A stretch of 64,000 nucleotides of DNA, taken from IMG/VR virus record IMGVR_UViG_3300034073_005046, positions 1 through 64,000 of that record; one strand, written 5' to 3'. Of the stretch, positions 234-54,796 are shown piece after piece; position 1 is the first letter of the stretch; every line of letters begins with the position of its first letter. The notes under the pieces were generated by a model, which saw only the letters and a list, made by a program, of their open reading frames with translations, ran no database searches and had not been told where the DNA came from. Origin of the DNA: a virus. The position numbers and the translations under genes were made by a program.

Positions 234-252
234 CTTATACCTAGCTTTCAAC
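234..252 (-). promoter_or_regulatory. Late-type motif before DUF6496-like gene
   Basis: GTTGAAAGC, 4-nt spacer, then TATAA; 21 nt before the ATG at 213. The TGA of the 826-residue gene is inside the first box. Confidence 0.75.
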
Positions 253-2728
253 GCATCATGGCCCGGATGCTTTGCGCGAACTCCTGATATTCCGCACTGT
301 TGACCGTTTTATTCCGGGTCTTACGACCCTTTTGTTGATTGATTGCCTTTGCCGCTGCCTGGTCTACATCCGACTTCGACGCACCTTGGCCCGCCTGTTT
401 CTGAATCAAATCACGGACCCGATTAAAGAATTGTCCGGCTGACTCCCGGGCCGCCTTATCTCGCTCAAGACCGCTCAGCACGGCTTTGGCGACCTGGTCA
501 AGAGGGCTCTTGCCTTTAGCAGTAGAAGTCTTCTGACTAGAGGTAGGAGGCTTGTTGGCCGGCCCAGACTTCGTAAAGTCTTTTGCCGATCCTTCATCGG
601 TAAGCAGACCGGGCTGCTCGGCAGGCTCCGGCGCTTTACGCTGAGATTCTTTGACCTCCTGCTCCTTGCCCCTACGACTTGTGATCTGCTGCCTTTCCTG
701 CTCGGTCAAACCACTCTTCTGGATCTCCTTGACCTGCTTCGGAGTAAACCCATAGCTCTTGAGATTCTGCGTAAGCAACTCATCGCCGGCTTTTTTCTCT
801 CGAGTCGTATTGAATTTACCTGCCGATGGTCCTAGGCCACGAATACTACGTTGGGTAGCCTTCTCACCAGTCGGCTGAGCAGTCTCAGCTACATTCGATC
901 CGAATCCTTTGCCAGATCTAGGCTGCAGCGTCCCCATCTTGAACATGCTTTGTTGTCCGGCAGCACCGGCTTTCTCGGCCTCTGGGGGTTCTTGGCCACC
1001 CGCTTCGGGAGCAGGAGTCTGCTCAGGCGTAGCCGCTGAACCTCCCTCCAGCGGGTTGGTAGCTGAAGTCTCAGTAGTCAATCCGGCTGGGAACAATGTG
1101 CCCTGTTTAAACTCCTTAATAATTTGTTCGGGAGTTGATTTAGCTACCTTCTCCTTTACAGCTCGAAGCTCTTTAGGACTAGGCGTGAATCCGCCACCAC
1201 CCTTTCTTCCGGCCTGCTGGGCTGGTGCTTTGAATCCACCTTTGCTAGTGACTTCGCGACGAGAGGGGGCTTCTGGCTCTGGTGCAGCAGTCGGAGCCTC
1301 GGGCGCAGCACTTTCTTCTGGTTGCTGTTGCGGGCCGCCAATATTTAATCCAAATTTTTCGTTAATCGCCTTAGTAGCTGTATCTAGATCCGTGCCCAAA
1401 TCGTCCGCAGTCTCTTGCGCAATGTACTCCAGGTCGTCGGGAGTAAGCTTAGCGGTTTTAGGTGCTAGTTGACCAGCCTTCCTCGCCGCTGCTTTCGCAC
1501 GTTCAAGGGCATCTTTTTTATTTTGGTTGTACTTTGCCCGGAAGAGGTTAGTAATTTGGTCAGGAGGAATGCCAGGCTTAGCCTCATCCTCTGGTTCGGG
1601 CGCAGCAGCGCCTTTGGTTGATGCAGCCTGAGCTTCGGGCGCAGCAGGGATTTCTTCTTCGTAGGGGTCGACACCCAGAGTATTTACAAGATAGTCTCTA
1701 AGCTGCGATTTGGCTGACTCAGCATCGATGTTACCATGCTTCTCCTGGGTATCTTCGATCGCCAGATCGATTAGATCGCGTAGCTGAGATTCTTCTGGTT
1801 GGATATACTTCTCTTTGCTGGGGTCCCAAGCCCCCTTCGATTTTCTCTTCTCCGCATCGATAAGGCCTTTGCGGAATGTATCGTATTGCGATTTGAATGC
1901 GTTGCCAAGATCTTGCTTGATACGGCCTTCGATTGCGCGGGTAGGACCCTCGGTCTCGGGTTCCGGACCCTCCGCAACCGCTTCGCGGTCCTGGAGACGC
2001 TTATCCTCAGCAATGCGTTGTCTCAGCTCATCTCGTCTACCTTTCTGCTTCTCTTCTCTTTTCGCCTGAGCTTCGGGCGACTGAGAGAGTTTAGATTGAT
2101 ACTGTTTCTGAAATTCTTGCAGAACATCGGCGGTGGTCGCCTTGCCCTCCATCCGATCCTGCAACGTCTTCTGCCACTCCGATCTCGGGCCGGTTTCAGG
2201 TTGGCCCAAGCCCTCACGCTGACTACCTTCGACGGGTTGACCGGTACTTTCACGCTTACCTTCTTTCCGCTGCTGTCCTACCGGCATCGCCTTCTTGCCA
2301 GGCGCCTGTTTGGGCCCATAACCACCTCTCGCCGTAGCTTCCTCTTTCCGTTTCGCCTTACCTTCCTCGTCTTTCTCTCGGGTTAGTCGATTCCCGGGGT
2401 GGCTACCGATGCCCAGATTCTTCATCACCTGGTCGGTGATGGCCATTGCTTCGTTTTCTTGATATCGTCGTCCGGGGTTCTTTGAATCAAGGTAGGCTCC
2501 TACGTAGCCTTTATCTCGGCTGGTCAGTGCCTTGACGCCAGCCATGAATACATCGGCCTCGTCCATGCCATCGCTCCAGAGACGACTTAGCATCTCATCG
2601 AGCTTTTCGCGGCCAGCAACCGATCTTTGATACAGCTTCGACCTCGGATCGACTTGACCGCCCTTCAGGACATTAGCGTTGAAGGGATTCTTCCCCTGCT
2701 GCTGCGTATCTTGGTCTTGAAAATCCAT
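248..2728 (-). CDS. Large hydrophilic, probably disordered virion-associated protein
   Basis: I do not recognise this 826-residue protein. It is extremely hydrophilic, rich in Gln, Lys, Glu, Ala and Pro, with several Pro-Glu-Ala linkers (about residues 255-270, 360-390, 470-500) and Gly-Lys stretches, and no membrane segment. Two related modules can be read at about 275-355 and 390-465: each starts with an N-x-F-(K/R)-x-(K/Q)-Y pattern, continues as a charged helix and ends with a short acidic helix. This suggests an elongated, internally repeated protein such as an internal head, scaffold-like or neck component; that is inference. A late-type motif (2739-2756) sits 10 nt before the ATG. Its TGA stop (248-250) lies inside the late motif of the next gene. 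Confidence 0.75.
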   Translation of the reverse strand: MDFQDQDTQQQGKNPFNANVLKGGQVDPRSKLYQRSVAGREKLDEMLSRLWSDGMDEADVFMAGVKALTSRDKGYVGAYLDSKNPGRRYQENEAMAITDQVMKNLGIGSHPGNRLTREKDEEGKAKRKEEATARGGYGPKQAPGKKAMPVGQQRKEGKRESTGQPVEGSQREGLGQPETGPRSEWQKTLQDRMEGKATTADVLQEFQKQYQSKLSQSPEAQAKREEKQKGRRDELRQRIAEDKRLQDREAVAEGPEPETEGPTRAIEGRIKQDLGNAFKSQYDTFRKGLIDAEKRKSKGAWDPSKEKYIQPEESQLRDLIDLAIEDTQEKHGNIDAESAKSQLRDYLVNTLGVDPYEEEIPAAPEAQAASTKGAAAPEPEDEAKPGIPPDQITNLFRAKYNQNKKDALERAKAAARKAGQLAPKTAKLTPDDLEYIAQETADDLGTDLDTATKAINEKFGLNIGGPQQQPEESAAPEAPTAAPEPEAPSRREVTSKGGFKAPAQQAGRKGGGGFTPSPKELRAVKEKVAKSTPEQIIKEFKQGTLFPAGLTTETSATNPLEGGSAATPEQTPAPEAGGQEPPEAEKAGAAGQQSMFKMGTLQPRSGKGFGSNVAETAQPTGEKATQRSIRGLGPSAGKFNTTREKKAGDELLTQNLKSYGFTPKQVKEIQKSGLTEQERQQITSRRGKEQEVKESQRKAPEPAEQPGLLTDEGSAKDFTKSGPANKPPTSSQKTSTAKGKSPLDQVAKAVLSGLERDKAARESAGQFFNRVRDLIQKQAGQGASKSDVDQAAAKAINQQKGRKTRNKTVNSAEYQEFAQSIRAMMR

Positions 2729-2738
2729 CTGCGTATAT

Positions 2739-2756
2739 CTCTACCTAGCTTTCAAC
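2739..2756 (-). promoter_or_regulatory. Late-type motif before 826-residue gene
   Basis: GTTGAAAGC, 4-nt spacer, TAGAG; 10 nt before ATG 2728. The TGA of the 59-residue gene is inside the first box. Confidence 0.75.
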
Positions 2757-2931
2757 CTATTTTCCACCCCTCAGGCACCTCGATGTTCAAGGGTTTTTCT
2801 TCGCCTGAGAATACGGGATCAGTGCTGGTGGGCCCAGGGACATCGGGCTGCTTAGTGTTCTTCTTCGGCTTGGCCGGACTCAGAATGCCCATCATTCCTT
2901 CGCTTGCCCTCGCGCCATCCAGATTCATCAT
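2752..2931 (-). CDS. Small hypothetical protein, 59 aa
   Basis: A short gene read directly from the sequence: ATG at 2931 overlaps the TGA of the upstream 144-residue gene (2928-2930), and its own TGA (2752-2754) lies inside the late motif that precedes the 826-residue gene. The predicted product starts M-M-N-L-D-G-A-R and ends with E-G-W-K-I-G; it is Pro/Lys/Glu rich with no recognisable domain. The stop-start coupling upstream and the exact fit between flanking genes are the main evidence that it is translated. Function unknown; its position suggests a minor virion or assembly protein. Confidence 0.65.
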   Translation of the reverse strand: MMNLDGARASEGMMGILSPAKPKKNTKQPDVPGPTSTDPVFSGEEKPLNIEVPEGWKIG

Positions 2932-3362
2932 GATCCCAAAATCTCGTTAAGTAGTTCGTCGCTAAGTTCTTTGCCAGCCTCGCTCCGAAGTTGTTCGTCT
3001 GTTCGTTTCTGCTCGTCGTGACACACCTTGGTGATATCAGCGAGGAGACTGAGCACCGAGGAGCGATCCCATTCAGCGATCTCGGCCTGGTCGCTGAGTT
3101 CCTGGAAACGTAGTAGTATCGACTCCAGGATCGACAGGCTCATTTCGCGGACAGCGATCCAGTTCTCCTGCGCAATCGGGTCGGTTGTCTCGGCCTGGTA
3201 ACTATGGCTCTGCGCGATGAGTTTGATGAGACTTTTTCCCATCGTCGCAATGGACTTCGGCCCAATACGCTCCAGGTCGATGGCCCCGAGCTGATTCAAG
3301 ATCATCTCTTGGGCGTCGTTTCCGAAGTTACTGAAGTCCCGTAGTTTCGATCGAGTCGCCAT
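2928..3362 (-). CDS. Hypothetical helical protein, 144 aa
   Basis: Not recognised. The product is predicted to be almost entirely helical, acidic at the C-terminus, without Cys-rich or membrane segments. The start is unusual: ATG at 3362 overlaps the second box of a late-type motif (3361-3376), leaving only 5 nt between the GTTGAAAGC box and the start. If the motif is a promoter, the mRNA would be leaderless or nearly so. The next possible Met is about residue 20. The gene ends in a stop-start overlap with the 59-residue gene. It lies between the wedge gene and the disordered protein, so a small structural or chaperone role is possible. Confidence 0.7.
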   Translation of the reverse strand: MATRSKLRDFSNFGNDAQEMILNQLGAIDLERIGPKSIATMGKSLIKLIAQSHSYQAETTDPIAQENWIAVREMSLSILESILLRFQELSDQAEIAEWDRSSVLSLLADITKVCHDEQKRTDEQLRSEAGKELSDELLNEILGS

Positions 3363-3376
3363 ATATAGCTTTCAAC
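3361..3376 (-). promoter_or_regulatory. Late-type motif overlapping a start codon
   Basis: GTTGAAAGC followed by TATATATGG; the ATG at 3362 lies in the position of the TAGAG box. Suggests a leaderless transcript if it is a promoter. Confidence 0.6.
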
Positions 3377-3390
3377 CGTAACCCTGCGGA

Positions 3391-7118: not shown

Positions 7119-7125
7119 TTATATG

Positions 7126-8859
7126 TTAAACTCCAAAATACCAAATTAATTTACCGTCTAAATTTCTAATGCATTTGTATTGGACACTATCACAACTTAT
7201 ACTTGAGCCCAATTGAGAGCTAGTACAAGGTTTTCTGTTAGTCTTGTACTCATCACATTTTCTTTTCTCGGCTTTTCTTTTCTCATCTCTTTCTCTCTCT
7301 TCCCTAGCTTTTCTCAGGGAGGCACATTTTCCACCATCTTTACCTTCATTATCTAACCAAGTTCCTATGGCTATTCTCATTCTATTAGCGCAGCCATTTA
7401 TAAACTGTATTGCTCTTGTGTATTGAGTTTCATCTATATAGATATTTGCTGTAATAATATTGGGTCCACATCCTGGAGCTACTTTAGATATATAGGGTTC
7501 AAAATTTCTGTATAACCCTGCATCATTAAGCCAATACATGGCACTGCTGTATTGTTTAGATAGTCCTTCTGCTCTACTCTTAGTAGACTGAAATATGGAT
7601 CCTAAAGCCAACGGGTTACTATTATCGTAAATTTTTTGAAAAATAGACCTTTGTTTAATATATTCATTACAAAGACTAGGATTGCTTACCTCTGTTGGTT
7701 TTGGATTACCTCCTCCCTTTTTATTAGCATTTTTCTCTTTTTCATCTCCTGGGCCTGGACCTTCATAGTCACCTTGTGGCAGCAAGGGGTCATTCACCAG
7801 CGGCTGCCTGCCCGGCCGCAATATATCTACATACCCATCATTGATCGTCCATTCTGGTACTTGTTCGAGTTCGAAGGATACCTCGGCGTTGACGAGAATC
7901 CCCTTGTCCCACGCTTTCTCTCTGACCTGGATGTTCTGAATGACACAGGGGCCGAAGACCCTCTTGCCCCACACAAATTCGAGGACCGGAGGACCATCAG
8001 ACCCGTTCTCACCATCTCTCGCCATGAACAACTGTTGTAATCCGGCCTCTAGGGTATCAACACGCTTACCAAACGTATACCCATGCAACAGTACCTTGCC
8101 GAAGCTCAGCTTCCGGTTTCGGTTTGAGCGCCAGGATAGCGGTTGACCGCTGTTTTTAGGATCCGATACGCCCCAAGTCTCAGCCCTGTTATAATCTGGC
8201 CCCGAGCTAAGTTGCAGTTCTTCCGGATTGAAGAGGAACATCCACACCGCATCGGCGGGAGGAGGAGAAGCCGTTACTCCGGCCGTATTAACTGTCCCAG
8301 ATGGATTAGCACTAACAATCTTACCAGACCTCGGAGAAGGTTGAGATCCTGTAACTGGTACTTGTGTGGGTACTGGTTGTCTTCTACCAGTGGCCCGATT
8401 CTCGGGTACTGTCAGAATAGTACGGGTGCTGGGCTGCGTAGTTTGGGGGGTAGGGTTTGTGGTTCCAGGAGAAGACACTTGGCTCACATCCTCCTCCAGC
8501 TTCTGCTGTGGATCGGTTGGGGCGCTGGACTGCTCTTCTGTTTCGACGGGAGTTTTACCAGCAGTTCCACCCCTAGACCAGTAACGGATATAGGCTATGG
8601 TCTGAGACATCTGGCATGCACTGCCAGGAACAAAAGTTATAGCGTTTAGATCTCTTAAGACATCGTAATGAGCCCCGCGCTGTAAAATTACAGTTGTAGG
8701 CTCTTCTGGTTCTGATTCCCAAGAAAAATCTTGGTCATCGCGATCTTCAGGGTCCGGATTCCCCTCACTGTCGTAGGTTGACTCCCAAGTAAACTCAGTG
8801 TCATTCCTGTTTTCAGGATCTACCTGGGAATTATCTACTTCGGTAAAATCCGATGCCAC
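7126..8859 (-). CDS. Baseplate hub/tube-associated protein with CIS-tube-type domain
   Basis: A 577-residue protein starting at GTG 8859, 19 nt after a late-type motif. Residues 20-50 carry a direct repeat of D-P-E-(N/D)-R-(N/D)-D-x-x-F-x-W-E-S. A Thr/Pro/Gln-rich linker (about 100-200) leads to a domain (about 205-345) with F-N-P-E-E-L at its start and a W-x-x-N-(R)-x-R-x-L-x-F core, resembling the N-terminal domain of contractile-injection-system tube/LysM proteins that join the tube to the baseplate. The C-terminal approximately 210 residues are Cys-rich with charged helices and are coded in clearly AT-richer DNA (7126-7770) than the rest, so this part may have a separate origin. Tape measure follows 7 nt downstream. 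Confidence 0.65.
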   Translation of the reverse strand: MASDFTEVDNSQVDPENRNDTEFTWESTYDSEGNPDPEDRDDQDFSWESEPEEPTTVILQRGAHYDVLRDLNAITFVPGSACQMSQTIAYIRYWSRGGTAGKTPVETEEQSSAPTDPQQKLEEDVSQVSSPGTTNPTPQTTQPSTRTILTVPENRATGRRQPVPTQVPVTGSQPSPRSGKIVSANPSGTVNTAGVTASPPPADAVWMFLFNPEELQLSSGPDYNRAETWGVSDPKNSGQPLSWRSNRNRKLSFGKVLLHGYTFGKRVDTLEAGLQQLFMARDGENGSDGPPVLEFVWGKRVFGPCVIQNIQVREKAWDKGILVNAEVSFELEQVPEWTINDGYVDILRPGRQPLVNDPLLPQGDYEGPGPGDEKEKNANKKGGGNPKPTEVSNPSLCNEYIKQRSIFQKIYDNSNPLALGSIFQSTKSRAEGLSKQYSSAMYWLNDAGLYRNFEPYISKVAPGCGPNIITANIYIDETQYTRAIQFINGCANRMRIAIGTWLDNEGKDGGKCASLRKAREERERDEKRKAEKRKCDEYKTNRKPCTSSQLGSSISCDSVQYKCIRNLDGKLIWYFGV

Positions 8860-8878
8860 AGTACACTAAAAGTTTAGT

Positions 8879-8896
8879 CTCTATCTTGCTTTCAAC
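8879..8896 (-). promoter_or_regulatory. Late-type motif before tube/hub, tape measure and wedge operon
   Basis: GTTGAAAGC, 4-nt spacer, TAGAG; 19 nt before GTG 8859. No other element of this type occurs before the tape-measure and gp25 genes, so it likely serves all three. Confidence 0.75.
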
Positions 8897-8908
8897 GGTT
8901 TAGCAGAG

Positions 8909-13049: not shown

Positions 13050-13280
13050 TCAGGTGCCCATAAACTTCGCAGACAACACACGCTGTGCGCGAACGAACTT
13101 TCGCAGGGGGTAGTTCGTAATAATCGACCACTCCAAGAGGGAGCGGATGTTCATCTCGGAAAGGGGGAGGTCGAGACTCGCATCTTTGTTAGAGACGAAG
13201 AATTTCTCGCCATCGCGAGCGACCACGAGGACATCGACATCTTTGTCGAACCGAATCGGCTTCTGTAACTTCTCGACCAT
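13050..13280 (-). CDS. Small hypothetical protein, 76 aa
   Basis: Not recognised. I set the start at ATG 13280, not at an upstream in-frame codon, because a strong Shine-Dalgarno (AGGAGGAAACTA) immediately precedes it and the stop of the previous gene overlaps it as TAATG. The product is a compact, probably alpha/beta domain with D-K-D-V-D-V-L-V-V-A near its start. It is co-transcribed with the 152-residue gene behind a late-type motif at 13749-13767, so a minor virion or assembly role is plausible. No domain call is made. Confidence 0.65.
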   Translation of the reverse strand: MVEKLQKPIRFDKDVDVLVVARDGEKFFVSNKDASLDLPLSEMNIRSLLEWSIITNYPLRKFVRAQRVLSAKFMGT

Positions 13281-13748: not shown

Positions 13749-13767
13749 CTCTCACTTAGCTTTCAAC
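13749..13767 (-). promoter_or_regulatory. Late-type motif before 152-residue gene
   Basis: GTTGAAAGC, 4-nt spacer, TGAGA; 10-11 nt before ATG 13738. Lies in the last codons of the upstream 171-residue gene. Confidence 0.7.
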
Positions 13768-14267: not shown

Positions 14268-14281
14268 GGTGGCAGAAGGTT

Positions 14282-14299
14282 CTATATTTACCTTTCACC
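14282..14299 (-). promoter_or_regulatory. Variant late-type motif before 171-residue gene
   Basis: GGTGAAAGG, 4-nt spacer, TATAG; 14 nt before ATG 14267. Adjacent to an extended -10, so the gene may have two promoters. Confidence 0.55.
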
Positions 14300-20229: not shown

Positions 20230-20248
20230 CTTCTACATAGCCTTCAAC
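20230..20248 (-). promoter_or_regulatory. Late-type motif before 182-residue gene
   Basis: GTTGAAGGC, 4-nt spacer, TAGAA; about 16 nt before ATG 20214. Confidence 0.65.
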
Positions 20249-28752: not shown

Positions 28753-28771
28753 CTTCTATTTGGCTTTCAAC
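28753..28771 (-). promoter_or_regulatory. Late-type motif before giant fibre gene
   Basis: GTTGAAAGC, 4-nt spacer, TAGAA; 12 nt before the TTG start at 28740. Confidence 0.7.
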
Positions 28772-29271: not shown

Positions 29272-29289
29272 GATGTGAAATTTTTTCCT

Positions 29290-29307
29290 GTCTACTGGGC
29301 TTTCAAC
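29290..29307 (-). promoter_or_regulatory. Late-type motif, leftward half of divergent palindrome
   Basis: GTTGAAAGC, 4-nt spacer, TAGAC reading left; 18 nt before GTG 29271. Its first box is fused back to back with the rightward element. Confidence 0.75.
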
Positions 29308-29316
29308 GTTGAAAGC
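29299..29316. repeat. 18-bp perfect palindrome at divergent late promoters
   Basis: GCTTTCAACGTTGAAAGC: two late boxes joined head to head, serving the 159-residue gene (left) and the baseplate operon (right). Confidence 0.9.
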
Positions 29317-29325
29317 AGGGTAGAG
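29308..29325 (+). promoter_or_regulatory. Late-type motif, rightward half, opens the baseplate operon
   Basis: GTTGAAAGC, 4-nt spacer, TAGAG; 13 nt before the TTG start at 29339. Forms the 18-bp palindrome GCTTTCAACGTTGAAAGC (29299-29316) with the leftward element. Confidence 0.75.
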
Positions 29326-29338
29326 AACATCATTTAAG

Positions 29339-38413: not shown

Positions 38414-38433
38414 TTGTGTGTTATAATACACAA
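38414..38433. repeat. Inverted repeat over thioredoxin/sigma promoter
   Basis: TTGTGTGTTATAATACACAA: nine of ten positions are symmetric; the -10 TATAAT is at the centre. Operator-like. Confidence 0.7.
38419..38427 (+). promoter_or_regulatory. Extended -10 promoter before thioredoxin and sigma genes
   Basis: TGTTATAAT, about 29 nt before ATG 38456, at the centre of a 20-bp inverted repeat (38414-38433) that could be an operator. Confidence 0.65.
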
Positions 38434-38786: not shown

Positions 38787-39503
38787 ATGGATTTGAATTC
38801 TAAGCACCGGGGTAGGAAGCGCACGGAGTACGAGGTTACCCGGGACAGGCATATCCGCGAGAATATGTGGAAAGCGGCTCATGTAGCGAGGAAGGTATCG
38901 ACGTTTAGCGGCTTACCTTTCGAGGATCTGAGGTCCGTTGCCCTCGAAGCGATGGTCAAACTCTACGACAAGTGGGATCCGAGCCGGGCGAACTTCAGTA
39001 CGTGGCTGAATCGGTCACTTACGTTCCAGGTTCTTAACTACCTTCGCGACCACTCCCGGATGATCCGAATGCCAAGATTGTATGCCGATGTATACATGAA
39101 GATTCGGAAGATCATTGGGGCGAATCCGGACATCTCGGATTGTGAAGTGGCCGAGCAAACCGGTCTCGACGAGATCTTGATACGGGAGACGAGAAAGGCG
39201 TATCTTGTGACGTATACCGAAATCAATGAAGATACGGAGATGCCCGTTGAAGACGAGGAGCTGGACAAAGATACGTTGCCCAGGATGTTAGAGGACTACA
39301 AGGGTACGTTAGAGCGTTTGGCCGATTTACCCGAATCGGAGTACGATTTTCTCGTCGATGTGTACGTACACAAACGGGCTTATTCGACCATCGCTAGGAA
39401 AAACCCTGGCATCTGTAATGCCGAAAAGATACGGGCGAAGACAAACGAAATTATGGAGAAAATCTTGACCGAGGAGGATGACCCGTGGCCAGGAAGTATG
39501 TGA
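38787..39503 (+). CDS. Sigma-70 family RNA polymerase sigma factor
   Basis: A 238-residue protein with recognisable sigma-70 regions. Region 2 lies at about 25-97: F-E-D-L-R-S-V-A-L-E-A-M, K-W-D-P-S-R-A-N-F-S-T-W-L-N, and I-R-M-P at its end. A region 3-type helix-turn-helix is at about 100-140 (S-D-C-E-V-A-E-Q-T-G-L), and a shorter region 4-like C-terminal helix pair is at about 185-230. Such proteins direct host RNA polymerase to phage promoters. It is cotranscribed with thioredoxin from the class TGYTAnAAT promoter, i.e. expressed with middle genes, which fits a switch to late transcription. I infer it reads the GTTGAAAGC-N4-TAGAG elements. Confidence 0.8.
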   Translation: MDLNSKHRGRKRTEYEVTRDRHIRENMWKAAHVARKVSTFSGLPFEDLRSVALEAMVKLYDKWDPSRANFSTWLNRSLTFQVLNYLRDHSRMIRMPRLYADVYMKIRKIIGANPDISDCEVAEQTGLDEILIRETRKAYLVTYTEINEDTEMPVEDEELDKDTLPRMLEDYKGTLERLADLPESEYDFLVDVYVHKRAYSTIARKNPGICNAEKIRAKTNEIMEKILTEEDDPWPGSM

Positions 39504-43682: not shown

Positions 43683-44402
43683 TTAGCCAACAGTGCCGAC
43701 GATGGCGGTGCCGCCGGACCCAGTAGCCGATTCCTGGCCCGCCTCAGTGGTGTCGATTTCTAGGCTGACAACATCTCCTACGGCGAAACCGTCGCCACCA
43801 TCAACGATGGCGGTTAGAGCGGTGATCACACCGGCCACTATCGTGGCCTCGACAACTGCGTCAGCGTATTGGTCGGGGTCAGTCTGGTCGCCGAGGGCGA
43901 GGGTTGCCAAGAACACAACGCCAGTCTCGTCTTCATCCGCACCGTCGATGGTGTAGCCGCTACCGCCCTCGTCAAGAGTCAGAGTGAGAATCGGGCCGAC
44001 GGGAGTCACGTTATCTAGGATTTCGGCCAACACCACACTGAGGTCGTAGACAGCCACCATGAAGTGGAAGTCTTCTTCGCCAGCAATACCCACGTATCGG
44101 GTCACATTAACGAGCTGGTCGTTGAGACGGGAAACATAAGCGCTGGGAACGTCCGGATTATTGACCAACGCATCTACGATTAGCTCGAGGGTGCCGTAGG
44201 CGAACTTCTTCGCCTCAAAGCCCATGCTCGGGCCGCAGAGGACAAACTGATCTTTGAGCGAGGTGCGAGCGGAGGGGGTGTTGGAGCCGGTATCGTACTC
44301 AAGTACGAGTTTGTTGGCCAATGCGTCGGTGAGGAAGGTCTGAAGTTCGCGCTTAAACTCGAACTGAATACCAACCAATTTCTTAAGTGTTGCTGCGGAC
44401 AT
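43683..44402 (-). CDS. Virion structural protein, 239 aa
   Basis: Not assigned to a named family. The N-terminal 130 residues are helical with the start S-A-A-T-L-K-K-L-V-G; the C-terminal 100 residues are a beta domain with G-G-S-G-Y-T and G-G-D-G-F-A-V-G-D-V-V-S-L, a small module frequent in phage structural proteins and present also in the 524-residue gene at 49673-51247. A late-type motif (44427-44445, second box weak) and a 7-bp inverted repeat (44420-44437) precede it. It heads the operon with the hub hydrolase. A tube, collar or decoration role is possible. Confidence 0.65.
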   Translation of the reverse strand: MSAATLKKLVGIQFEFKRELQTFLTDALANKLVLEYDTGSNTPSARTSLKDQFVLCGPSMGFEAKKFAYGTLELIVDALVNNPDVPSAYVSRLNDQLVNVTRYVGIAGEEDFHFMVAVYDLSVVLAEILDNVTPVGPILTLTLDEGGSGYTIDGADEDETGVVFLATLALGDQTDPDQYADAVVEATIVAGVITALTAIVDGGDGFAVGDVVSLEIDTTEAGQESATGSGGTAIVGTVG

Positions 44403-44426: not shown

Positions 44427-44445
44427 TCTTCGTATAGCTTTCAAC
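44427..44445 (-). promoter_or_regulatory. Late-type motif before 239-residue structural gene
   Basis: GTTGAAAGC is intact (44437-44445), but the second box reads CGAAG. A 7-bp inverted repeat CTATACG/CGTATAG (44420-44437) covers the downstream half, perhaps a regulatory hairpin. Confidence 0.6.
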
Positions 44446-44450: not shown

Positions 44451-44780
44451 TCAGGCTACGCGGACCTTGAGGATACTGCCTGTTCGATAAAGGCCGCCCA
44501 CGGCGACAGCCGGATCCGCTGCTGCGGCTGCGGAGTCGTCAGCGAACTCCCTTAAGCCGGTAAAATCGATTCGGTCGTAGGCGATAGCCGTATTACCATT
44601 CACCGTCTTAGCCACGCCGTCCAACCCGACATAGTACAGCTCCTCATGGATCTCATTGAGGAACAGCTCACCCCGCTTCGCGTTAGCGGCATCGGTATCG
44701 TATAGATCTTGGACGTATTGCTGGCGTTTCGTGGTGTCGGCGGTGAACCGGACCCCCCAGCGAGGCATAGGAACAGTCAT
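44451..44780 (-). CDS. Small virion protein, 109 aa
   Basis: Not recognised. A compact protein with an aromatic N-terminal half, an acidic Ala-rich loop (D-D-S-A-A-A-A-A-D-P) and a basic end. It has its own strong late-type motif (GTTGAAAGC-N4-TAGAG at 44798-44815), 17 nt before the ATG, so it may be made in large amounts. It is immediately followed by the 239-residue structural gene, and divergent to the P-loop kinase gene. A decoration or minor tail role is possible. Confidence 0.65.
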   Translation of the reverse strand: MTVPMPRWGVRFTADTTKRQQYVQDLYDTDAANAKRGELFLNEIHEELYYVGLDGVAKTVNGNTAIAYDRIDFTGLREFADDSAAAAADPAVAVGGLYRTGSILKVRVA

Positions 44781-44797
44781 TTGAAATCGTTATCTCT

Positions 44798-44815
44798 CTC
44801 TACACTGCTTTCAAC
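44798..44815 (-). promoter_or_regulatory. Late-type motif before 109-residue gene
   Basis: GTTGAAAGC, 4-nt spacer, TAGAG; 17 nt before ATG 44780. Confidence 0.75.
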
Positions 44816-45463: not shown

Positions 45464-45468
45464 GCAGT

Positions 45469-45486
45469 GTTGAAAGCTAGGTAAGG
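45469..45486 (+). promoter_or_regulatory. Late-type motif upstream of phoH leader
   Basis: GTTGAAAGC, 4-nt spacer, TAAGG. Unlike all others it is 90 nt from the start codon it faces, with an intrinsic terminator between. Confidence 0.65.
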
Positions 45487-45532
45487 GTTGAGGACAAGCC
45501 TTTGACCAGAGAAACTAACCTCTAATCCGGTG

Positions 45533-45563
45533 TGCGGACACGTTCTCGTGGTCCGCATTTTTT
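45533..45563 (+). terminator. Intrinsic terminator between kinase gene and phoH
   Basis: TGCGGAC/GTCCGCA stem with an inner ACG/CGT pair, loop TTCT and one bulged G, followed by TTTTTT. It ends 13 nt before the phoH ATG, so phoH expression requires read-through or initiation within the hairpin. Confidence 0.8.
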
Positions 45564-45576
45564 GTATCTATTCAAC

Positions 45577-46335: not shown

Positions 46336-46355
46336 GTCCCTGAATACTGGAAGGC

Positions 46356-46538
46356 ATGAAAAGGCCCGCCGCGAACATCCAACGGTCTACACACTGGTTG
46401 GGTGAATGCGGGCCTCTCGTCCAGTTTGGTATCTCACACGATGAGATGAAGGCTAGGCAGAATAATACCTCGGCTATTAAAAACGCGGTCCCTTCTAAGT
46501 TGATTCTATTCATAGTGAACTTTTTTCCCTCTACTTAA
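46356..46538 (+). CDS. Possible small protein after phoH, 60 aa (uncertain)
   Basis: ATG 46356 follows the phoH stop by 20 nt and has G-G-A-A-G-G as a fair ribosome site. The product has one Cys, a charged middle and a hydrophobic end (L-I-L-F-I-V-N-F-F). The frame runs through a nested hairpin (46363-46414). On the opposite strand a 76-residue frame starting at ATG 46513 has its own late-type motif and leader similar to that of the 159-residue gene at 29271. I cannot tell which strand is coding, or whether the stretch is structured RNA, so this call is weak. Confidence 0.3.
   Translation: MKRPAANIQRSTHWLGECGPLVQFGISHDEMKARQNNTSAIKNAVPSKLILFIVNFFPST
46357..46414 (-). terminator. Nested hairpin, possible leftward terminator or structured RNA
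   Basis: GGCCCGC (46363-46369) pairs with GCGGGCC (46408-46414); inside, CATCCAAC (46376-46383) pairs with GTTGGGTG (46397-46404). On the minus strand the stem is followed by TTTTC. Lies after phoH. Confidence 0.45.
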
Positions 46539-46547
46539 TCTCTCAAC
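46529..46547 (-). promoter_or_regulatory. Weak leftward late-type motif after phoH
   Basis: GTTGAGAGA, spacer, TAGAG reading left, back to back with the rightward element. Leads to ATG 46513 of a doubtful frame through a leader with GGGAAAAAAGTTCAC, similar to that at 29271-29289. Confidence 0.45.
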
Positions 46548-46564
46548 GTTGAAAGCAGTATAGG
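46548..46564 (+). promoter_or_regulatory. Late-type motif before 1,031-residue structural gene
   Basis: GTTGAAAGC, 4-nt spacer, TAGGA; 16 nt before ATG 46581. Confidence 0.7.
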
Positions 46565-46580
46565 ATTAGGCGTGTAAAGC

Positions 46581-49500
46581 ATGGCGACTCGGGTCGACGG
46601 AAACAGGGAATTATCTACTCTTCCTGAGTCTACTTTACTTCGAAAACTTAGGCTGAAGGTGCCTAGGCGCGAGGGCCAAGCGAATTTCATCGGCCTGAAG
46701 AGAAGTAATGCGTTGTCTGATGTCTCAGATTCTGGAGAGACTCTGGACAACATCCTTCGAAAGATCTCCCTTCTCGATGCAGCAGAGAGTAATAGGTACG
46801 GTGGTCCGTACAACGGGGTTGACTGGAGCGTAACTTCTGACTTCGTAGACGAAAATATAAACAAACAGTTTCTTCTCCCCTTATCCGGAGCGAGTATTGG
46901 TGGGGGATCGTTGGGTAGTCAGGTCTCCACCGACCCTAGGATTCGCATCGAAGATCGGATTAGCCTCGCCGGATCGTTTGTGGGAGATGGCAGCTACCCC
47001 GGTCTGCACAACGGACCTGATGCCCAGTTTTATAAAGACCCTGGACCACAGGAAATTGGATACATAGAATTTAGTTTTTCTGGCAGCAGTGTAACAGTAA
47101 CCCAGCTTAAGAATCCCGACGAGGTTACTAATCTGTTGGTGTCAGAGATACTGGGTGACCAAGACAGTGTTGTTCTAGACATAATCGGCTACGCCGACAT
47201 CGACTTATCGGGATCAGGAATCTCCTTAAGGATAGACTCCCTCGGGCCTGCATGGACGGTGGAAAGCGGCCTGAGTGGTCTGAATCAGATACGTAGTATA
47301 CTTGGCACGACTGAGTTTAATTCCACCTTATTTCGGATAAGTCGTGACTACTCCGTGCTCAATCCTCCTATCTGGTATACGGATGCCCCTGGCACAGAGT
47401 ACGATGAGTTTAAGGTTCGGGAGAACGTTGATGGGACTTTGAGGTCGTTGGTGGCTAAGAGCTACTGGTATAGCCGAGAGTACGTAGAATCGAGGTGGTC
47501 GGATACTGAACGCAGCCTAATTGGTAGCAATAGTGTCGCTCAAGACTCTAATATGAGGTGGGCGGATAACCCCTCTCCACTTCGTGGAGAGCAGTACAAT
47601 TGGGGGATTAGGTGGGATGGTTACTTGAGGATAGCCCCGGGAATTTACGGTCTACAAGTACAAACAAACGTCGATGTCCGTATCGATTTGGGCATAGGAT
47701 CCTCTAGCCCATACTGGGAAAATATCTTCGATACCAGATCTAACTCCGCCAAACAGTCGGAAGATCTGTATATATCCTCAGCGACTTTCAGTACCCCTCA
47801 GGTCAACGATCTGTTCAAGTATGCGACGGGAGATGGAGCTGATGACTGGATCGCGTATGTTCCTATTACCATCCGGATGTTCAGAGGTGGCCCGGATAGA
47901 TCGGATCTAACTCTGCAGATACCAGATGAACCCAATCTGTTCATCAAAACCACCCCTATATCCGCTGAAACGACATTCTACTCCCAAGAACACGAAATTA
48001 CTCTAAGCGGTACGGATGGAAACTGGAGTGTCGCGAGTGGGACGTTGAGCCAGATCATCGATGTGCTGGAAGATACGAGTGCGTCGGTTAGTTATCAACT
48101 TATTGGCCTAGGGGATACGATATTTATCTCTCCCATTTCCATAAACCTTACAACCGATGGTACGCTGGTGACTAGCGATACGACCGGCTTAGCAGCAGAA
48201 ACCTACACCCTAAGCATATCCCCATCTCGTAGTTCGGAGTTCGATAGTAATCTGACCGCTTTGTGGAAAGGACGCATCGCATCACCGAGTCCGAGCCACC
48301 AGACGTATACCGATCTCATTGATGGGAGTTATACGCCCGATCAGCAGAAAGTAGATTTCCAGTCTCGGCCGGAGTGGTGGAAAGTCAGTGAGGGACATCC
48401 GTTTGACAGAGACTTGACATTGTCCGACAACAATACACCGTTGGATGGTCTACTCAGGAATAGCTTTAAGTCTACTTTATCTTCTGATGCTCCTAATATC
48501 GGGTTATACGGAGACGGGTTGGGCGTATACTCATCTCGTCCCAATATCCTTATGGGCGAAGCGAGATATGATGTGGGATCTGATAGCCCAGGCTCTAACT
48601 ACATCGGGGTGTTGCTGGAGGCTAACAGACTGGGAGAGGGAGGTCGACTCATTGTCAACGCCCTGCCCATCAACAACTCCACTTTCTCTGCGGCCAATAG
48701 GCTAGGGCAAAACGACCTCGGTGGAGACCCAAATCACAAAACTTTAGCTTACAACAATGTAACTGACCGCATCGCTCAGATGTTCTTGTGGAACCCGGTC
48801 ACACCAGATGGCAATGAGAACAAATACTATCTGCATTCCGATTTGACCGCGTTGTCGGCCAGCGACGATCCTACAACTCTCGGCTTCCCTGCCTTCTCCG
48901 ATGCCACCTGGCTATCTCCCGTAACCATCTCAGCCACTGAAGTAGCCGATGATGATCTGTTTACCTCCGAGGTGGCCGGCTTCGTATCTCCCCTGACTCT
49001 GTCGGTAGAAAAAGTAACGGTCGGGGGATACGATATCCTCGGATTCAGCACGACGTTGCCCTCGATCCTAATCGGCGGTTCAGAGGTCGGCCAGTTTAGT
49101 GGGAAGTATGTTAAGTTTTACAACGAAACCGATCTCGCATTTCAGTATAAGTTTGTTGATACGGGGGAAGGAATTTCTTTCTCAGACATCTTGAAGCTAA
49201 CCTATAATCCTGGGTTCAACGCCACCCTGAGTGAGATTCCGAAGCCCCCTTCAGACCGGGTAACCCCGTTTGGTTTTGATCTGCCAGAGTACGGAGGCGG
49301 TCTGTGCTATCCGCCGTACGCTATCAATAACCCTCTACTCGAGGATATCGCCATTGACGATACCAACCTCTATGATGATCAGGTTGCTGGGTACTACGAT
49401 GTCTTTTGGGGTGACCATACTAAATCGGACTTAGGAGGTAATACTCTCACCATTACTGAAAAGCTCGAGTTCAACTCTACCGATATCGCCAGCGTAATCA

Positions 49501-49676
49501 CTGAGTTAACTCCCACTGAACTCCTAGATACCGCGCTAAACTCCTCGGATTATACCCACAGGCTTAGAATCGATGTCGCCTTAGACCCCACTCTCTACGA
49601 TACCGACCAAATCGAGCATATCGGAAATGGGGAAAAAGTAAAAGATTCGTATTACGCCTACGTCAACCTTGACTAG
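46581..49676 (+). CDS. Large beta-rich structural protein (baseplate/fibre)
   Basis: A 1,031-residue protein, not recognised. A helical N-terminus (about 1-70) precedes long beta-rich domains. One region (about 335-385: W-x-G-Y-L-R-I-A-P-G-I-Y-G-L-Q, then V-D-V-R-I-D-L) has the look of a PA14-type carbohydrate-binding domain but is not certain. Serine, aspartate and threonine are abundant, as in phage fibres. A late-type motif (46548-46564) is 16 nt before the ATG, facing away from the phoH region. Its end overlaps the converging 524-residue gene by 4 nt. It could be a receptor-binding or baseplate wedge protein. Confidence 0.6.
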   Translation: MATRVDGNRELSTLPESTLLRKLRLKVPRREGQANFIGLKRSNALSDVSDSGETLDNILRKISLLDAAESNRYGGPYNGVDWSVTSDFVDENINKQFLLPLSGASIGGGSLGSQVSTDPRIRIEDRISLAGSFVGDGSYPGLHNGPDAQFYKDPGPQEIGYIEFSFSGSSVTVTQLKNPDEVTNLLVSEILGDQDSVVLDIIGYADIDLSGSGISLRIDSLGPAWTVESGLSGLNQIRSILGTTEFNSTLFRISRDYSVLNPPIWYTDAPGTEYDEFKVRENVDGTLRSLVAKSYWYSREYVESRWSDTERSLIGSNSVAQDSNMRWADNPSPLRGEQYNWGIRWDGYLRIAPGIYGLQVQTNVDVRIDLGIGSSSPYWENIFDTRSNSAKQSEDLYISSATFSTPQVNDLFKYATGDGADDWIAYVPITIRMFRGGPDRSDLTLQIPDEPNLFIKTTPISAETTFYSQEHEITLSGTDGNWSVASGTLSQIIDVLEDTSASVSYQLIGLGDTIFISPISINLTTDGTLVTSDTTGLAAETYTLSISPSRSSEFDSNLTALWKGRIASPSPSHQTYTDLIDGSYTPDQQKVDFQSRPEWWKVSEGHPFDRDLTLSDNNTPLDGLLRNSFKSTLSSDAPNIGLYGDGLGVYSSRPNILMGEARYDVGSDSPGSNYIGVLLEANRLGEGGRLIVNALPINNSTFSAANRLGQNDLGGDPNHKTLAYNNVTDRIAQMFLWNPVTPDGNENKYYLHSDLTALSASDDPTTLGFPAFSDATWLSPVTISATEVADDDLFTSEVAGFVSPLTLSVEKVTVGGYDILGFSTTLPSILIGGSEVGQFSGKYVKFYNETDLAFQYKFVDTGEGISFSDILKLTYNPGFNATLSEIPKPPSDRVTPFGFDLPEYGGGLCYPPYAINNPLLEDIAIDDTNLYDDQVAGYYDVFWGDHTKSDLGGNTLTITEKLEFNSTDIASVITELTPTELLDTALNSSDYTHRLRIDVALDPTLYDTDQIEHIGNGEKVKDSYYAYVNLD
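47573..47591. repeat. 8-bp triloop inverted repeat inside 1,031-residue gene
   Basis: CTCTCCAC-TTC-GTGGAGAG, perfect. Confidence 0.75.
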
Positions 49677-51247: not shown

Positions 51248-51251
51248 GATT

Positions 51252-54200
51252 TTACGGGTTGACTAGGTCGGCCGGATCATATCCAGCGTCGATGATTGAT
51301 TGGTATCGTGTGGTGGAGTTTGAGTACTCAGTAGATACGATGGTAGGGGAGGTGTCAGGGGATCTGTAAGTAAAGCCTAGGTCTATCAGGATACCCCTAA
51401 GGTTTTTAAACAAAATGGCGACCGGATTCTCCTCGATGATTTGCCTTTTGTCCGTTCGGGTCTTGTAATACGTACCGCTCACCAGCGATCCTGGGATAGA
51501 TACAGTGCGTGTTCCTACCTGAACCTCAACTGTGGTGGTGTTACCCTCCTCATCGGTAAGGGTTCTTTCCTCGTAAACCTTAAACAGTTCGTTTCGATAC
51601 AACGAAGTAACAACATCGGATGCAGCGGAAACTGTTACTGGGAACACTTCGGATTGGGTGTAATTTTCTACCCCCGCCTTATTAAAGGCTAACCTAACCC
51701 TGCAGTTACTAAAGCGTCTACTTGCATCGAGGGTGGAGACTTCGGAGATTATTTCTCGTATCTTCTCAGTGCTTAAGCTATTCCTAGAGAGATCGATAGT
51801 GATTCTTCTGCTATTGCCCGTGAAGATTTGGCTTAAGCTGCCGGACTCATAGCCCGATATAGAGTTTGCGCTGAGGTCGAGGGCGGGATAGGAGTCGTCT
51901 CGTATATTAGAGAGGTTGGCACGGATGTTAAGAGTACCAGACAACTTACAATTACTCGCCCTAAACACAAGCAATGAGCTAAACCCTGTACCGAACCAGT
52001 CAGAGGTGTTGATGGTTCTCCGTACGAAGTAGAGAGGGGATGGGACTAAGCCGGGTATATCAGAGTCTATGGTAACAGTCGTATTTGTGACAGACAAGAC
52101 CCTTGCGAGATCCGGACCCCCCTCTGATGCTCTGATTACGTCGTTCACTTGGACCAACTGCTTGAAGTTACTTGCACCGGTAAGGGTATAAACGTTGTCG
52201 TCAGGGTCGGTTTGCGTAGATCGGACCATAGAAAGTCCAGAAACAGATGTCGATGAATCCGAGTCATTGACGTATTTGCCTCTCACCGCTGCGACTGACC
52301 AGTCGGAGGGATAGGTGGAAGGCAAAGAGTTGCTGATGTCTACGGTTTGAATGTTGGTGGTAGATGTACCCTGGAAAGTTGGCAATAAGCAGCCACTACC
52401 AGATGCGTTCTGACTATTAAACACCAGGCTACGGACATCTCTGGCAAAATAGAAGTTCGATGAGTTGATGCTGAGGTTTCTCAGATCGTAGAAGTTACAG
52501 AGAGGAGAGTATATGCTGATCGATTTGGTGTCTGTCTCATACTGTAGTTTGAGTGGGAATACTGGGAATTTACCGGTTAGCCCGCTGCGCTCGGTGTTTA
52601 GAGAGGTAAGGTTGTGTAGGTTATCCAGATCTCTGTTTCTAAAACGATAGGCTGGTGAGAAGTAGTTTACCGTCAGATCTGTCAACCTATGTTCGTTTCC
52701 AAGGGAACGAGAGGTGGCGAAGCTGGCGGGGAGAAGGTAACTTATCCCATTCGAGACCACAGCGCTGATGGAGTTGCAAGCCCCGATGTTTAGGGATTCT
52801 AGGCTTCCAGTATCCAGGGAGGAACCGAGGGTAGGCATTGGCCCGGTTGTCCCAGATCCGTACAGGGAAAGGGAGCGGAGCTTCGGTACACGTAGAGGGG
52901 AAGTCGGGCTAACGAACTGTGCTCCGCCGGAGAACGAGGCGCCGAGGGAAACCAGATTCTGCCAAACCGCACTCTGCAGATCGATATCGATGTTGGTGTA
53001 AGTGATATCGATGGAAGTAGTTGTCCCCGTCCAATTCGACCAGGATTCGGAGGGGTCGTTGATATAGCCGGTCAGATTGTTAATTCGACCATAGACTCCG
53101 GCTACATTAAACGAATTTATCTTATACTTGGAGATGTGGCTAGGGCCATTGATTGTGTTGTCTGTATCCGTTGCCGATGTACCAATCGCTTCGATGGGTC
53201 CAGAGGTCCCCGTTCCACTCACATTGTAGTCTATAATTCCGCCGTTGTTATTAATCTTGGGCGGTGTACCAAAGATTACTTGAATATCGAGATTATTCGA
53301 CCAAGAGACTGAGCGAAGGTTGGGGAAGATGTCGTCGAAGCGGGGATTTCGGCCGTAGAATCTACCGCCTAGGGAGATAGAGGTGAGGGCTGAGAATTGG
53401 CGATAGTCGGTACCTGCGGTGCGAGATTGGTTGAGGATATACTTCTCGAACAACTGATCTGACCAGTCATCCCCGTCTTCATTAATCATCGCACCGGTCT
53501 TAGGGATAGTCAGGTATCCCGCTGCGGTGTACAAGGGGTGGGAGAAAGAAGGTGTGGCCGATGAATTCCTAATATCGAACCAGCCCATTGGGCCGCTACG
53601 CCAGGTGTCGCCGGATCCGGAGAGGTCGAGGGTGGTAAGCGTGGTTCGGAGAGTTTTTAGCCAGAGGGGTAGGATTGTCATCGATCCTCCGGATACTCTA
53701 AAAGTCCGAAGGTTATTAAACCCTACCAGGCCGAGATCTTTGCGGTCCGGGAACTCCCTGATATCGATGCCCTCAAACTCGATGCCAGCCACCTTCTCCG
53801 GGTTAACATAGAGGTATAGGTAGAGGTCGTAGAGGTTCTGGTAACCGGTACTTGTAATATCGATGTCGAGGGTGTACGTACTGGATCCGGTTTGCTGAAA
53901 CTTTTGGTCTACTGGTAGGAAGTCTACGGCAGGTGAGTTAGGCCTTTGTTGGGCAGGTTGGATCTGGTAGCCGAAGAAGTAGGGGGCTACGGAGTCGGTG
54001 AATGTAAATCTGACTCGGCCTGTAGCCATCCGGCAGTACACCCGGAGAGGGGTATTCTTTGTGGCGAGTAATCTGACTGGGGTTATTGTTCCTGTATTTC
54101 CATTATCGATGTTTACGGTTATGGCGTGGGACGGGTTTTCGACGATGGGCGATTTAGCCAGAAACGAGGTTTTTGGTAGTATGATTCTATTTACGTGAGA

Positions 54201-54761
54201 ACGACGCCGCACCCTAATCGATTCAGGATACCTCGCACTAAGGAAATACCCTACATTGTCCGGATCAGTCTCTGCGTTGAACAGGCTAGCACGAGATGTG
54301 GAGAGAGCTACGGACTGTCTGACCGGGCTACTAAATAGGCTGGTACCTATTGTGTTGGACCGGTACTGTGCCCCCGCACACTGGATCGATCCGTTGTAGA
54401 TGATTGCGTTAGGTGTGTTGAGGGTGGGTGCTCCGATACCACCGAGGGGGAATTGGGGCGAATAAAATTCTTTGTTGGTGTATAGACGAGTAGGGATACG
54501 GTCGTTATATATCTCAGAGAGCTGGTGGAGGGAGGGCAGCAGGAGTCGAGATAGACCAGAGGCAGCCCGAAGATCTTCCCTACTGATCGATTCGGATATA
54601 CCATAAATGCGATCTAATATCTCGGGGCGAATGAGGATATTCCTCAACGCATCGCGTCTGTCGGAATCAAATATCTCAGCCAGATTACTAACGCTATCTG
54701 ACCTCAGGCCAATATCTGGACGTGAAAATCTGCCAAATCCGGAGAAAAATGAATCCGCCAT
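51252..54761 (-). CDS. Leucine-rich-repeat structural/receptor-binding protein
   Basis: A 1,169-residue protein. From about 345 to 1,020 there are many leucine-rich repeats of the L-x-x-L-x-(L/I)-x-x-(N/S)-x-L-S/T-G type, for example L-T-T-L-D-L-S-G-S-G, L-T-S-I-S-L-G-G, L-E-S-L-N-I-G-A-C, L-T-S-L-N-T-E-R-S-G-L-T-G and I-T-I-D-L-S-R-N-S-L. The repeats are irregular and interrupted by Gly/Ser/Thr-rich loops. The first 330 residues form a beta-rich anchor. Leucine-rich repeats bind proteins, so this could be an adhesin or fibre tip; they are not common in phage tails. Late-type motif 17 nt upstream. Confidence 0.72.
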   Translation of the reverse strand: MADSFFSGFGRFSRPDIGLRSDSVSNLAEIFDSDRRDALRNILIRPEILDRIYGISESISREDLRAASGLSRLLLPSLHQLSEIYNDRIPTRLYTNKEFYSPQFPLGGIGAPTLNTPNAIIYNGSIQCAGAQYRSNTIGTSLFSSPVRQSVALSTSRASLFNAETDPDNVGYFLSARYPESIRVRRRSHVNRIILPKTSFLAKSPIVENPSHAITVNIDNGNTGTITPVRLLATKNTPLRVYCRMATGRVRFTFTDSVAPYFFGYQIQPAQQRPNSPAVDFLPVDQKFQQTGSSTYTLDIDITSTGYQNLYDLYLYLYVNPEKVAGIEFEGIDIREFPDRKDLGLVGFNNLRTFRVSGGSMTILPLWLKTLRTTLTTLDLSGSGDTWRSGPMGWFDIRNSSATPSFSHPLYTAAGYLTIPKTGAMINEDGDDWSDQLFEKYILNQSRTAGTDYRQFSALTSISLGGRFYGRNPRFDDIFPNLRSVSWSNNLDIQVIFGTPPKINNNGGIIDYNVSGTGTSGPIEAIGTSATDTDNTINGPSHISKYKINSFNVAGVYGRINNLTGYINDPSESWSNWTGTTTSIDITYTNIDIDLQSAVWQNLVSLGASFSGGAQFVSPTSPLRVPKLRSLSLYGSGTTGPMPTLGSSLDTGSLESLNIGACNSISAVVSNGISYLLPASFATSRSLGNEHRLTDLTVNYFSPAYRFRNRDLDNLHNLTSLNTERSGLTGKFPVFPLKLQYETDTKSISIYSPLCNFYDLRNLSINSSNFYFARDVRSLVFNSQNASGSGCLLPTFQGTSTTNIQTVDISNSLPSTYPSDWSVAAVRGKYVNDSDSSTSVSGLSMVRSTQTDPDDNVYTLTGASNFKQLVQVNDVIRASEGGPDLARVLSVTNTTVTIDSDIPGLVPSPLYFVRRTINTSDWFGTGFSSLLVFRASNCKLSGTLNIRANLSNIRDDSYPALDLSANSISGYESGSLSQIFTGNSRRITIDLSRNSLSTEKIREIISEVSTLDASRRFSNCRVRLAFNKAGVENYTQSEVFPVTVSAASDVVTSLYRNELFKVYEERTLTDEEGNTTTVEVQVGTRTVSIPGSLVSGTYYKTRTDKRQIIEENPVAILFKNLRGILIDLGFTYRSPDTSPTIVSTEYSNSTTRYQSIIDAGYDPADLVNP

Positions 54762-54777
54762 TCCGGTTATACTACCC

Positions 54778-54796
54778 CTCTATACGAGCTTTCAAC
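54778..54796 (-). promoter_or_regulatory. Late-type motif before LRR protein gene
   Basis: GTTGAAAGC, 5-nt spacer, TAGAG; 17 nt before ATG 54761. Confidence 0.7.

Follow-up and report, generated by a model that had tools for sequence, protein, structure and literature searches.

A recurrent element, GTTGAAAGC-N4-TAGAG, found upstream of virion-type genes in the window (the whole 64,000-nucleotide stretch analysed, positions 1 to 64,000 of IMG/VR record IMGVR_UViG_3300034073_005046), is probably the late promoter of the S-TIM5-like phage lineage, of a -10-only type and read by a phage-encoded sigma factor. A dedicated late promoter class, as put forward in the initial annotation, is the best supported reading because of the class specificity of the element, its conservation, the presence of a candidate sigma factor and a concerted one-base switch in S-TIM5.

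Copy number and position of the element

The 69,859-base record contains 16 exact copies of GTTGAAAGC, where 0.56 would be expected, and none of the sequence read backwards. The copies lie nearly always directly 5' of same-strand gene starts; in the genome-wide motif search scored by position relative to starts, as first proposed, copies were in excess and before starts. When up to three mismatches were allowed, the window gave 19 matches to GTTGAAAGC-N4-TAGAG where 4.7 were expected, and none of 100 shuffles reached 19. The consensus across related phage records is c-GTTGAAAGC-N4-TAGAr. All 16 sites of the initial annotation are present on the strands given, 13 of them as exact GTTGAAAGC and three in a weaker form (14282-14299, GGTGAAAGG; 20230-20248, GTTGAAGGC; 46529-46547, GTTGAGAGA). 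The spacer of 4 nt, described as near-constant, holds as a rule but not absolutely (5 nt at 54778, 46529 and 64076), and the TAGAG half is replaced by CGAAGA at 44427-44445. The elements are as follows.

234..252, minus strand: GTTGAAAGC TAGG TATAAG, start codon 39 nt past the first G
2738..2756, minus strand: GTTGAAAGC TAGG TAGAGA, 5' of the 826-aa gene 248-2728 (start at +28)
3358..3376, minus strand: GTTGAAAGC TATA TATGGC, holding the start codon (index 14) of the 144-aa gene 2928-3362
8878..8896, minus strand: GTTGAAAGC AAGA TAGAGA, 5' of the 577-aa gene 7126-8859
13749..13767, minus strand: GTTGAAAGC TAAG TGAGAG, 5' of the 152-aa gene 13280-13738
14281..14299, minus strand: weak element GGTGAAAGG TAAA TATAGA, 5' of the 171-aa gene 13752-14267
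20230..20248, minus strand: GTTGAAGGC TATG TAGAAG, 5' of the 182-aa gene 19666-20214
28753..28771, minus strand: GTTGAAAGC CAAA TAGAAG, 5' of the 1660-aa tail fibre gene 23758-28740
29289..29307, minus strand: GTTGAAAGC CCAG TAGACA, flush back-to-back with 29308..29326
29308..29326, plus strand: GTTGAAAGC AGGG TAGAGA, 5' of the structural gene 29339-30358
44427..44445, minus strand: GTTGAAAGC TATA CGAAGA, 5' of the 239-aa structural gene 43683-44402
44797..44815, minus strand: GTTGAAAGC AGTG TAGAGA, 5' of the 109-aa gene 44451-44780
45469..45487, plus strand: GTTGAAAGC TAGG TAAGGG, ~63 nt 5' of the called phoH start (45532)
46529..46547, minus strand: weak element GTTGAGAGA TTAA GTAGAG, flush back-to-back with 46548..46566
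46548..46566, plus strand: GTTGAAAGC AGTA TAGGAT, 5' of the 1031-aa gene 46581-49676
54778..54796, minus strand: GTTGAAAGC TCGT ATAGAG, 5' of the 1169-aa gene 51252-54761
64076-64094, 64997-65015 and 65959-65977 (GTTGAAAGA): further elements past the window in the same record, 5' of gene starts

An additional exact 9-mer at 23939-23947 (minus strand) lies within the tail fibre gene without TAGAG and is probably a chance occurrence. The back-to-back elements at 29289..29307 and 29308..29326 form an 18-bp palindrome, GCTTTCAACGTTGAAAGC, and flush divergent pairs leave no space for a separate -35. By position, the 239-aa and 1031-aa genes correspond to gp112 and gp116 of S-TIM5, respectively.

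Gene classes and conservation in related phages

In nine related records, the element was found 5' of 105 of 191 structural first-genes and of 8 of 91 replication or metabolic homologues (p=7e-15). Its absence before replication and nucleotide genes, noted initially, was borne out in the window, where the best upstream matches of the primase, polymerase/exonuclease, HNH, nrdA and nrdB genes carry 3-4 mismatches. Some genomes showed exceptions, with an element at phoH (2/9), primase (2/8) or a speD-like gene (3/3). No element was found at internal operon genes or 5' of the sigma gene itself (0/9), and upstream gaps were longer in element-bearing genes than in genes without it.

Across the nine related phage records, GTTGAAAGC totalled 187 copies against 6.9 expected. 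In an unbiased word search the top upstream 8-mer was GTTGAAAG or TTGAAAGC in 9/9 genomes, and GTTTAAAG in S-TIM5. This ruled out as late signal both the T4-type TATAAATA and a standard sigma-70 promoter, in agreement with the initial annotation, which had seen no likeness to either. In a profile built from the related phages, the region upstream of the element, including -35, carried no information above background. Judged from these comparisons, the element is not confined to one phage and belongs to a lineage, with a one-base variant in the cultured S-TIM5. A text search of the literature for the motif returned nothing relevant; a mention of GTTTAAAG in the S-TIM5 genome paper (PNAS 2012) is possible.

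A candidate phage sigma factor and the one-base switch

The proposed reader of the element and the promoter of its operon are located as follows.

38422..38427, plus strand: TATAAT of the host-like extended -10 promoter TGTGTTATAAT, 5' of the thioredoxin-like gene and sigma operon
38787..39503, plus strand: phage sigma-70-family factor, 238 aa

The sigma gene adjoins the terminase gene and lies downstream of the host-like TATAAT; a TATAAT/TATAGT box is kept 5' of the sigma operon in most relatives. TATAAT-like boxes showed no overall enrichment before genes without the element, and sigma-70-like boxes were seen only at orthologous cases (sigma operon, polymerase, nrdB and 14922-15557). A single sigma-70-type factor is encoded in all records that span the locus. 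Searches of seven genomes gave exactly one sigma region-2 match in each (7/7) and detected no region 4. In the window protein, region 2 is clear (over the Pfam cut-off), region 3 appears to be present and region 4 appears diverged, with no Pfam match, though a fold search from a weak model (pLDDT 66, pTM 0.36) aligned the full length with sigma-28, SigB and WhiG. The best NCBIfam match was the SigB/F/G family, below its cut-off.

In the cultured ocean cyanophage S-TIM5 (Aurunvirus), the orthologous sigma gp108, annotated as SigF in GenBank, shares 42% identity with the window sigma and has the same gene neighbours. The S-TIM5 element GTTTAAAG differs by one base (GTTT for GTTG), its TAG(A) block is weaker and its first block is equally common. 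GTTTAAAG was found at 12 of 18 genes bearing GTTGAAAGC in relatives against 0 of 25 others (p=1.2e-6), and sigma clades follow the motif variant, with changes in sigma region 2.3-2.4 (L74V, S77C, T79Q, Q81H). Across promoters of the regulon the same base has switched in step, accompanied by changes in sigma region 2.4. The G/T switch is a single phylogenetic event between clades that differ at 24 sigma columns, so that the switch alone is no proof of a contact between sigma and this base. The clade-level co-variation bears indirectly on whether the sigma factor at 38787-39503, the proposed reader, initiates at the element.

Transcription start and alternative explanations

The element-to-start distance ranges from 14 to ~67 nt. 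Nine in-frame ATGs, from four gene families, occur at index 14; others are at 16 and 17 and next from 27, giving 11 start codons within the element at index 14-17 and none at 18-26. The start codon of the 144-aa gene 2928-3362 is one inside the element, and index 14-17 is kept in relatives. Some start codons share the A of TAGA, which puts this block where transcription would be expected to begin; if the element is a promoter, we infer a transcription start at about the A of TAG. The start at 5-10 nt after TAGAG suggested in the initial annotation is at odds with these start codons, and a two-box promoter is improbable, as GTTGAAAGC behaves as the recognition element with TAGA at the start region. 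Expression of the 144-aa gene by read-through is another possibility and would make the +1 assignment less secure.

An unlikely alternative is a bipartite sigma promoter, as drawn in the initial annotation, with GTTGAAAGC as upstream box, TAGARR as -10 hexamer and +1 ~7 nt further on (index ~25). A TA at index 13-14 with purines after it does resemble a degenerate -10, and most starts, at index >=27, are compatible with such a +1; however, the 11 start codons at index 14-17, from four gene families, would be lost from the transcript, which contradicts TAGARR as -10, and the TAG block of S-TIM5 is weak while its first block is just as common. The geometry is also disfavoured because the upstream box would end 4 bp above -10, and we know of no sigma-70 geometry of this kind.

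A conserved mRNA leader, acting as a processing site or translation signal in longer transcripts without any promoter, is less likely than a late promoter and improbable in itself. It would account for elements near starts on the coding strand, and 5' ends produced by cleavage would give the same picture, but the start distance varies, internal operon genes lack the element, overlaps with the start codon occur, a flush divergent palindromic arrangement is natural for promoters and the element changes in concert with the sigma clade.

Recognition by a phage RNA polymerase, single-subunit or multisubunit, at a promoter of T7-like TA+1G geometry is very improbable: a +1 near TAG fits, and TAGRR resembles TATAG(G), at which T7-type promoters start, but these phages encode a sigma factor and no gene for either polymerase was found (multisubunit, no match in seven genomes with positive controls detected; T7-type, no match in a weak search that detected no control).

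Proposed mechanism and comparison with known systems

As a late promoter read by the phage sigma, GTTGAAAGC would span ~-15/-14 to -7/-6 as an extended -10 element whose register is that of the -10 boxes of group-3 sigmas, G-N-N-[G/T]-A-N-A (sigma-28 GCCGATAA, SigB GGGTAT), and a -35 element would not be required. The N4 would be the discriminator and TAGA would make up the start region; +1 would fall at or beside the A of TA(G). Leaders of ~13-24 nt would then be found on most late mRNAs, and a few mRNAs would begin exactly at AUG. Host sigma would serve the thioredoxin-like/sigma operon and the other early and middle genes via TGnTATAAT promoters, after which the phage sigma would turn on the virion genes, with divergent units driven by back-to-back promoters.

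The T4 late promoter sequence, TATAAATA, is unrelated to GTTGAAAGC. In other respects T4 is similar, with the small phage sigma gp55 acting on host core at -10-only late promoters (Virol J 2010, PMC2988020) that have no upstream/-35 element and are used on both strands (PMC2988020); unlike gp55, the window sigma comprises regions 2-3 plus a C-terminal domain. The sigma factors of phiEco32 (gp36) and phage 7-11 recognize TAATGTATA and TGATGT+TATA, respectively (PMC4331800). As here, a phage sigma is combined with one short -10-type element 5' of structural genes, but element sequence and phage lineage differ, and those phages carry ~10 or fewer copies whereas here there are tens, on both strands and often back-to-back. 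Among group-3 sigmas, the sigma-28/FliA promoter is TAAAGTTT-N11-GCCGATAA (PMC2859248) and the SigB promoter RGGXTTRA-N14-GGGTAT, with cyanobacterial SigF also described (PMC2758279). GTTGAAAGC and GTTTAAAG fit their -10 pattern GNN[G/T]ANA in the register suggested by the start codons; group-3 promoters carry a -35, whereas none is conserved at the element. The cyanophage Ma-LMM01 has early, middle and late classes (PMC5780444) but is reported to rely on host sigma-70-like promoters in all of them and to use no phage sigma (PMC5780444). S-CBWM1, a separate cyanomyovirus with sigma genes, has ~30 GGGTAAAA elements, likewise without -35; Cr-LKS4 (sigma 30% identical) showed no clear motif in 40 kb.

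Late promoters of the -10-only type under a phage sigma are already known, and the one here would be a new form of them. A fuller joint reading stands at about even chances: each phage would have a -10-only group-3-type late regulon with ~15-35 promoters, orthologous promoters would vary at ~-12 (G/T) together with residues of the sigma region 2.4 helix (a natural sigma-promoter co-evolution experiment), some late genes would be leaderless with the promoter start region serving as AUG, and divergent flush palindromic pairs would load only one polymerase at once. GTTGAAAGC, GTTTAAAG and GGGTAAAA share a pattern, and the same rule may hold generally among cyanomyoviruses that carry SigF-like sigmas. 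If true, these findings would reveal how transcription is programmed in a widespread phage lineage that is mostly uncultured, make its late genes recognisable by sequence alone, and connect the sequences of phage sigma and promoter through a single base, a link that is testable in the cultured S-TIM5.

Distribution of the element in the window and its relatives

Every one of the approximately 16 copies of GTTGAAAGC-N4-TAGAG listed in the initial annotation was confirmed as present, with two mismatches each at 14282 and 46529 and no TAGAG at 44427. A scan allowing up to three mismatches gave 19 sites in the window as compared to 4.7 in shuffled sequences. Across the whole 69,859-base viral record, of which the window covers bases 1–64,000, exact GTTGAAAGC occurred 16 times against 0.56 expected and the reversed word, serving as control, 0 times; one exact 9-mer, at 23939, lies within a gene, and beyond the window end there are three further element copies, one carrying a single mismatch.

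The gene calls in the relatives were mechanical ORFs and the records were mostly incomplete. In most of 31 relatives retrieved with one structural protein of the window as query, the element was kept at the equivalent divergent intergene, next to a protein only ~40–60% identical, and a pattern search of 15 relatives gave many copies in each, the backwards control being almost absent. Eight of these 15, read completely, and the window's own record made up a set of nine genomes with 187 exact copies (6.9 expected) and the profile c-GTTGAAAGC-t-n-w-r-T-A-G-A-r; in an unbiased word count, the top upstream 8-mer in each genome was GTTGAAAG or TTGAAAGC. The element is a lineage-wide signal. Upstream of it the nine-genome profile was flat with no −35 conserved, and a −35 is therefore lacking. 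The same set contained nine exact divergent element pairs with gaps of 0, 0, 0, 0, 1, 1, 1, 9 and 9 bp, the flush pairs forming the palindrome GCTTTCAACGTTGAAAGC; the partner promoter occupies the would-be −35 region, a further sign that no −35 is required. Separately, the reverse strand of 60001–80000 in the genome G004 (stretch L065) carries two copies of GTTGAAAGCTATAGGGGTGTGTCT about 400 bases apart (~75600–76000), neither of them at the start of a called gene.

When homologues in the nine genomes were classed via annotated proteins of the cultured cyanophage S-TIM5, the element preceded 105 of 191 structural homologues vs 8 of 91 replication, metabolic or host-like ones (p=7e-15), bearing out its proposed location before virion-type genes. 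It was found before the structural gene that opens the divergent unit (9/9 orthologues), terminase (8/9), portal (4/4) and tail sheath (4/4), and before none of the orthologues of operon-internal genes (0/7 to 0/9) or of the sigma gene (0/9). The median upstream gap was 36 nt for genes with the element vs 5 nt for those without. Judged from this gene context, the element marks late-type transcription units. The initial annotation proposed a new late promoter. No description of this element was found in the literature searched (the S-TIM5 genome paper lying outside that search); −10-only late promoters read by phage sigmas are already known from T4 gp55 (PMC2988020) and from phiEco32 and 7-11 (PMC4331800).

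Candidate reader and proposed transcription start

The features concerned are:
38787–39503 (+), 238-aa sigma factor (PHROG 351; Pfam region 2)
38422–38427 and upstream of 12990, 15557 and 19481, extended −10 boxes (TGnTATAAT/TACAAT/TATACT) before the sigma operon, polymerase, a 211-aa gene and nrdB
15600–17543, nrdA, flanked by HNH endonuclease genes
2928–3362 (−), 144-aa gene, with the element at 3358–3376 (−)

The top NCBIfam profile of the sigma factor was the SigB/SigF/SigG family, under that model's cut-off, and full-length fold matches of its low-confidence AlphaFold model (pLDDT 66) include sigma-28, SigB and WhiG. The gene was present in 9/9 genomes and in nearly all other relatives covering the locus. 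In the seven genomes tested, only one sigma was encoded per genome (7/7), and neither a sigma region 4 nor a multisubunit polymerase was detected. A candidate reader is present, and its link to the element is by association. In most relatives its gene sits after a thioredoxin-like gene, downstream of a TATAAT/TATAGT box, an arrangement consistent with initial production of the phage sigma by way of the host sigma; the TGnTATAAT-type boxes are probably host-sigma promoters of early/middle genes. In some relatives, the sequence just ahead of the aligned nrdA start reads as coding, possibly reflecting intein or intron insertions.

Counted from the first G of GTTGAAAGC, in-frame ATG starts occurred at index 14 (nine cases from four gene families), at 16 and at 17, with none at 18–26 and the next from 27 upward; a few GTG starts at 12–20 look like over-extended gene calls. 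In the window and seven relatives, the conserved N-terminus of the 144-aa protein begins at index 14–17, within the element. If the element is the promoter of this gene, +1 would lie at or before index 14, and the position of its start codon within the element, shared by the window and most relatives, suggests leaderless late mRNAs. The empty index 18–26 would fit leaders either zero or ribosome-sufficient in length. With +1 at index 14–15, GTTGAAAGC would span about −15 to −6, with its index-4 A at −11/−10, apparently the register of group-3 −10 boxes such as those of sigma-28 (GCCGATAA; PMC2859248) and SigB (GGGTAT; PMC2758279).

Candidate reader and element in other cyanophages

S-TIM5 encodes an orthologue of the window sigma (42% identity); among the upstream words of this phage, GTTTAAAG, with GTTT in place of GTTG, ranks first. 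This word was found at 12/18 genes whose relatives mostly have GTTGAAAGC vs 0/25 genes without it in relatives (p=1.2e-6). In a wider sigma sampling (88 relatives, 80 kept), phages with a sigma 58–97% identical to that of the window carried GTTG and those at 41–45% mainly GTTT. Twenty-four sigma residues were diagnostic, four of them (74, 77, 79 and 81) in the region 2.3–2.4 helix, which is responsible for reading the −12 base in sigma-70. Sigma residues and the base of the element switch together, which suggests, but does not prove, a pairing of the two, because a single evolutionary event is involved.

The separate cyanomyovirus S-CBWM1 (MG450654) encodes two sigma factors, one of them 28% identical to the window sigma. 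About 30 copies of GGGTAAAA(T/C) were found in its genome (stretches L086–L088), roughly 30–48 nt upstream of gene starts, almost always on the coding strand and likewise without a −35; this is probably the late promoter of S-CBWM1. GTTGAAAGC of the window lineage, GTTTAAAG of S-TIM5 and GGGTAAAA of S-CBWM1 have in common the pattern G-N-N-[G/T]-A-A-A.
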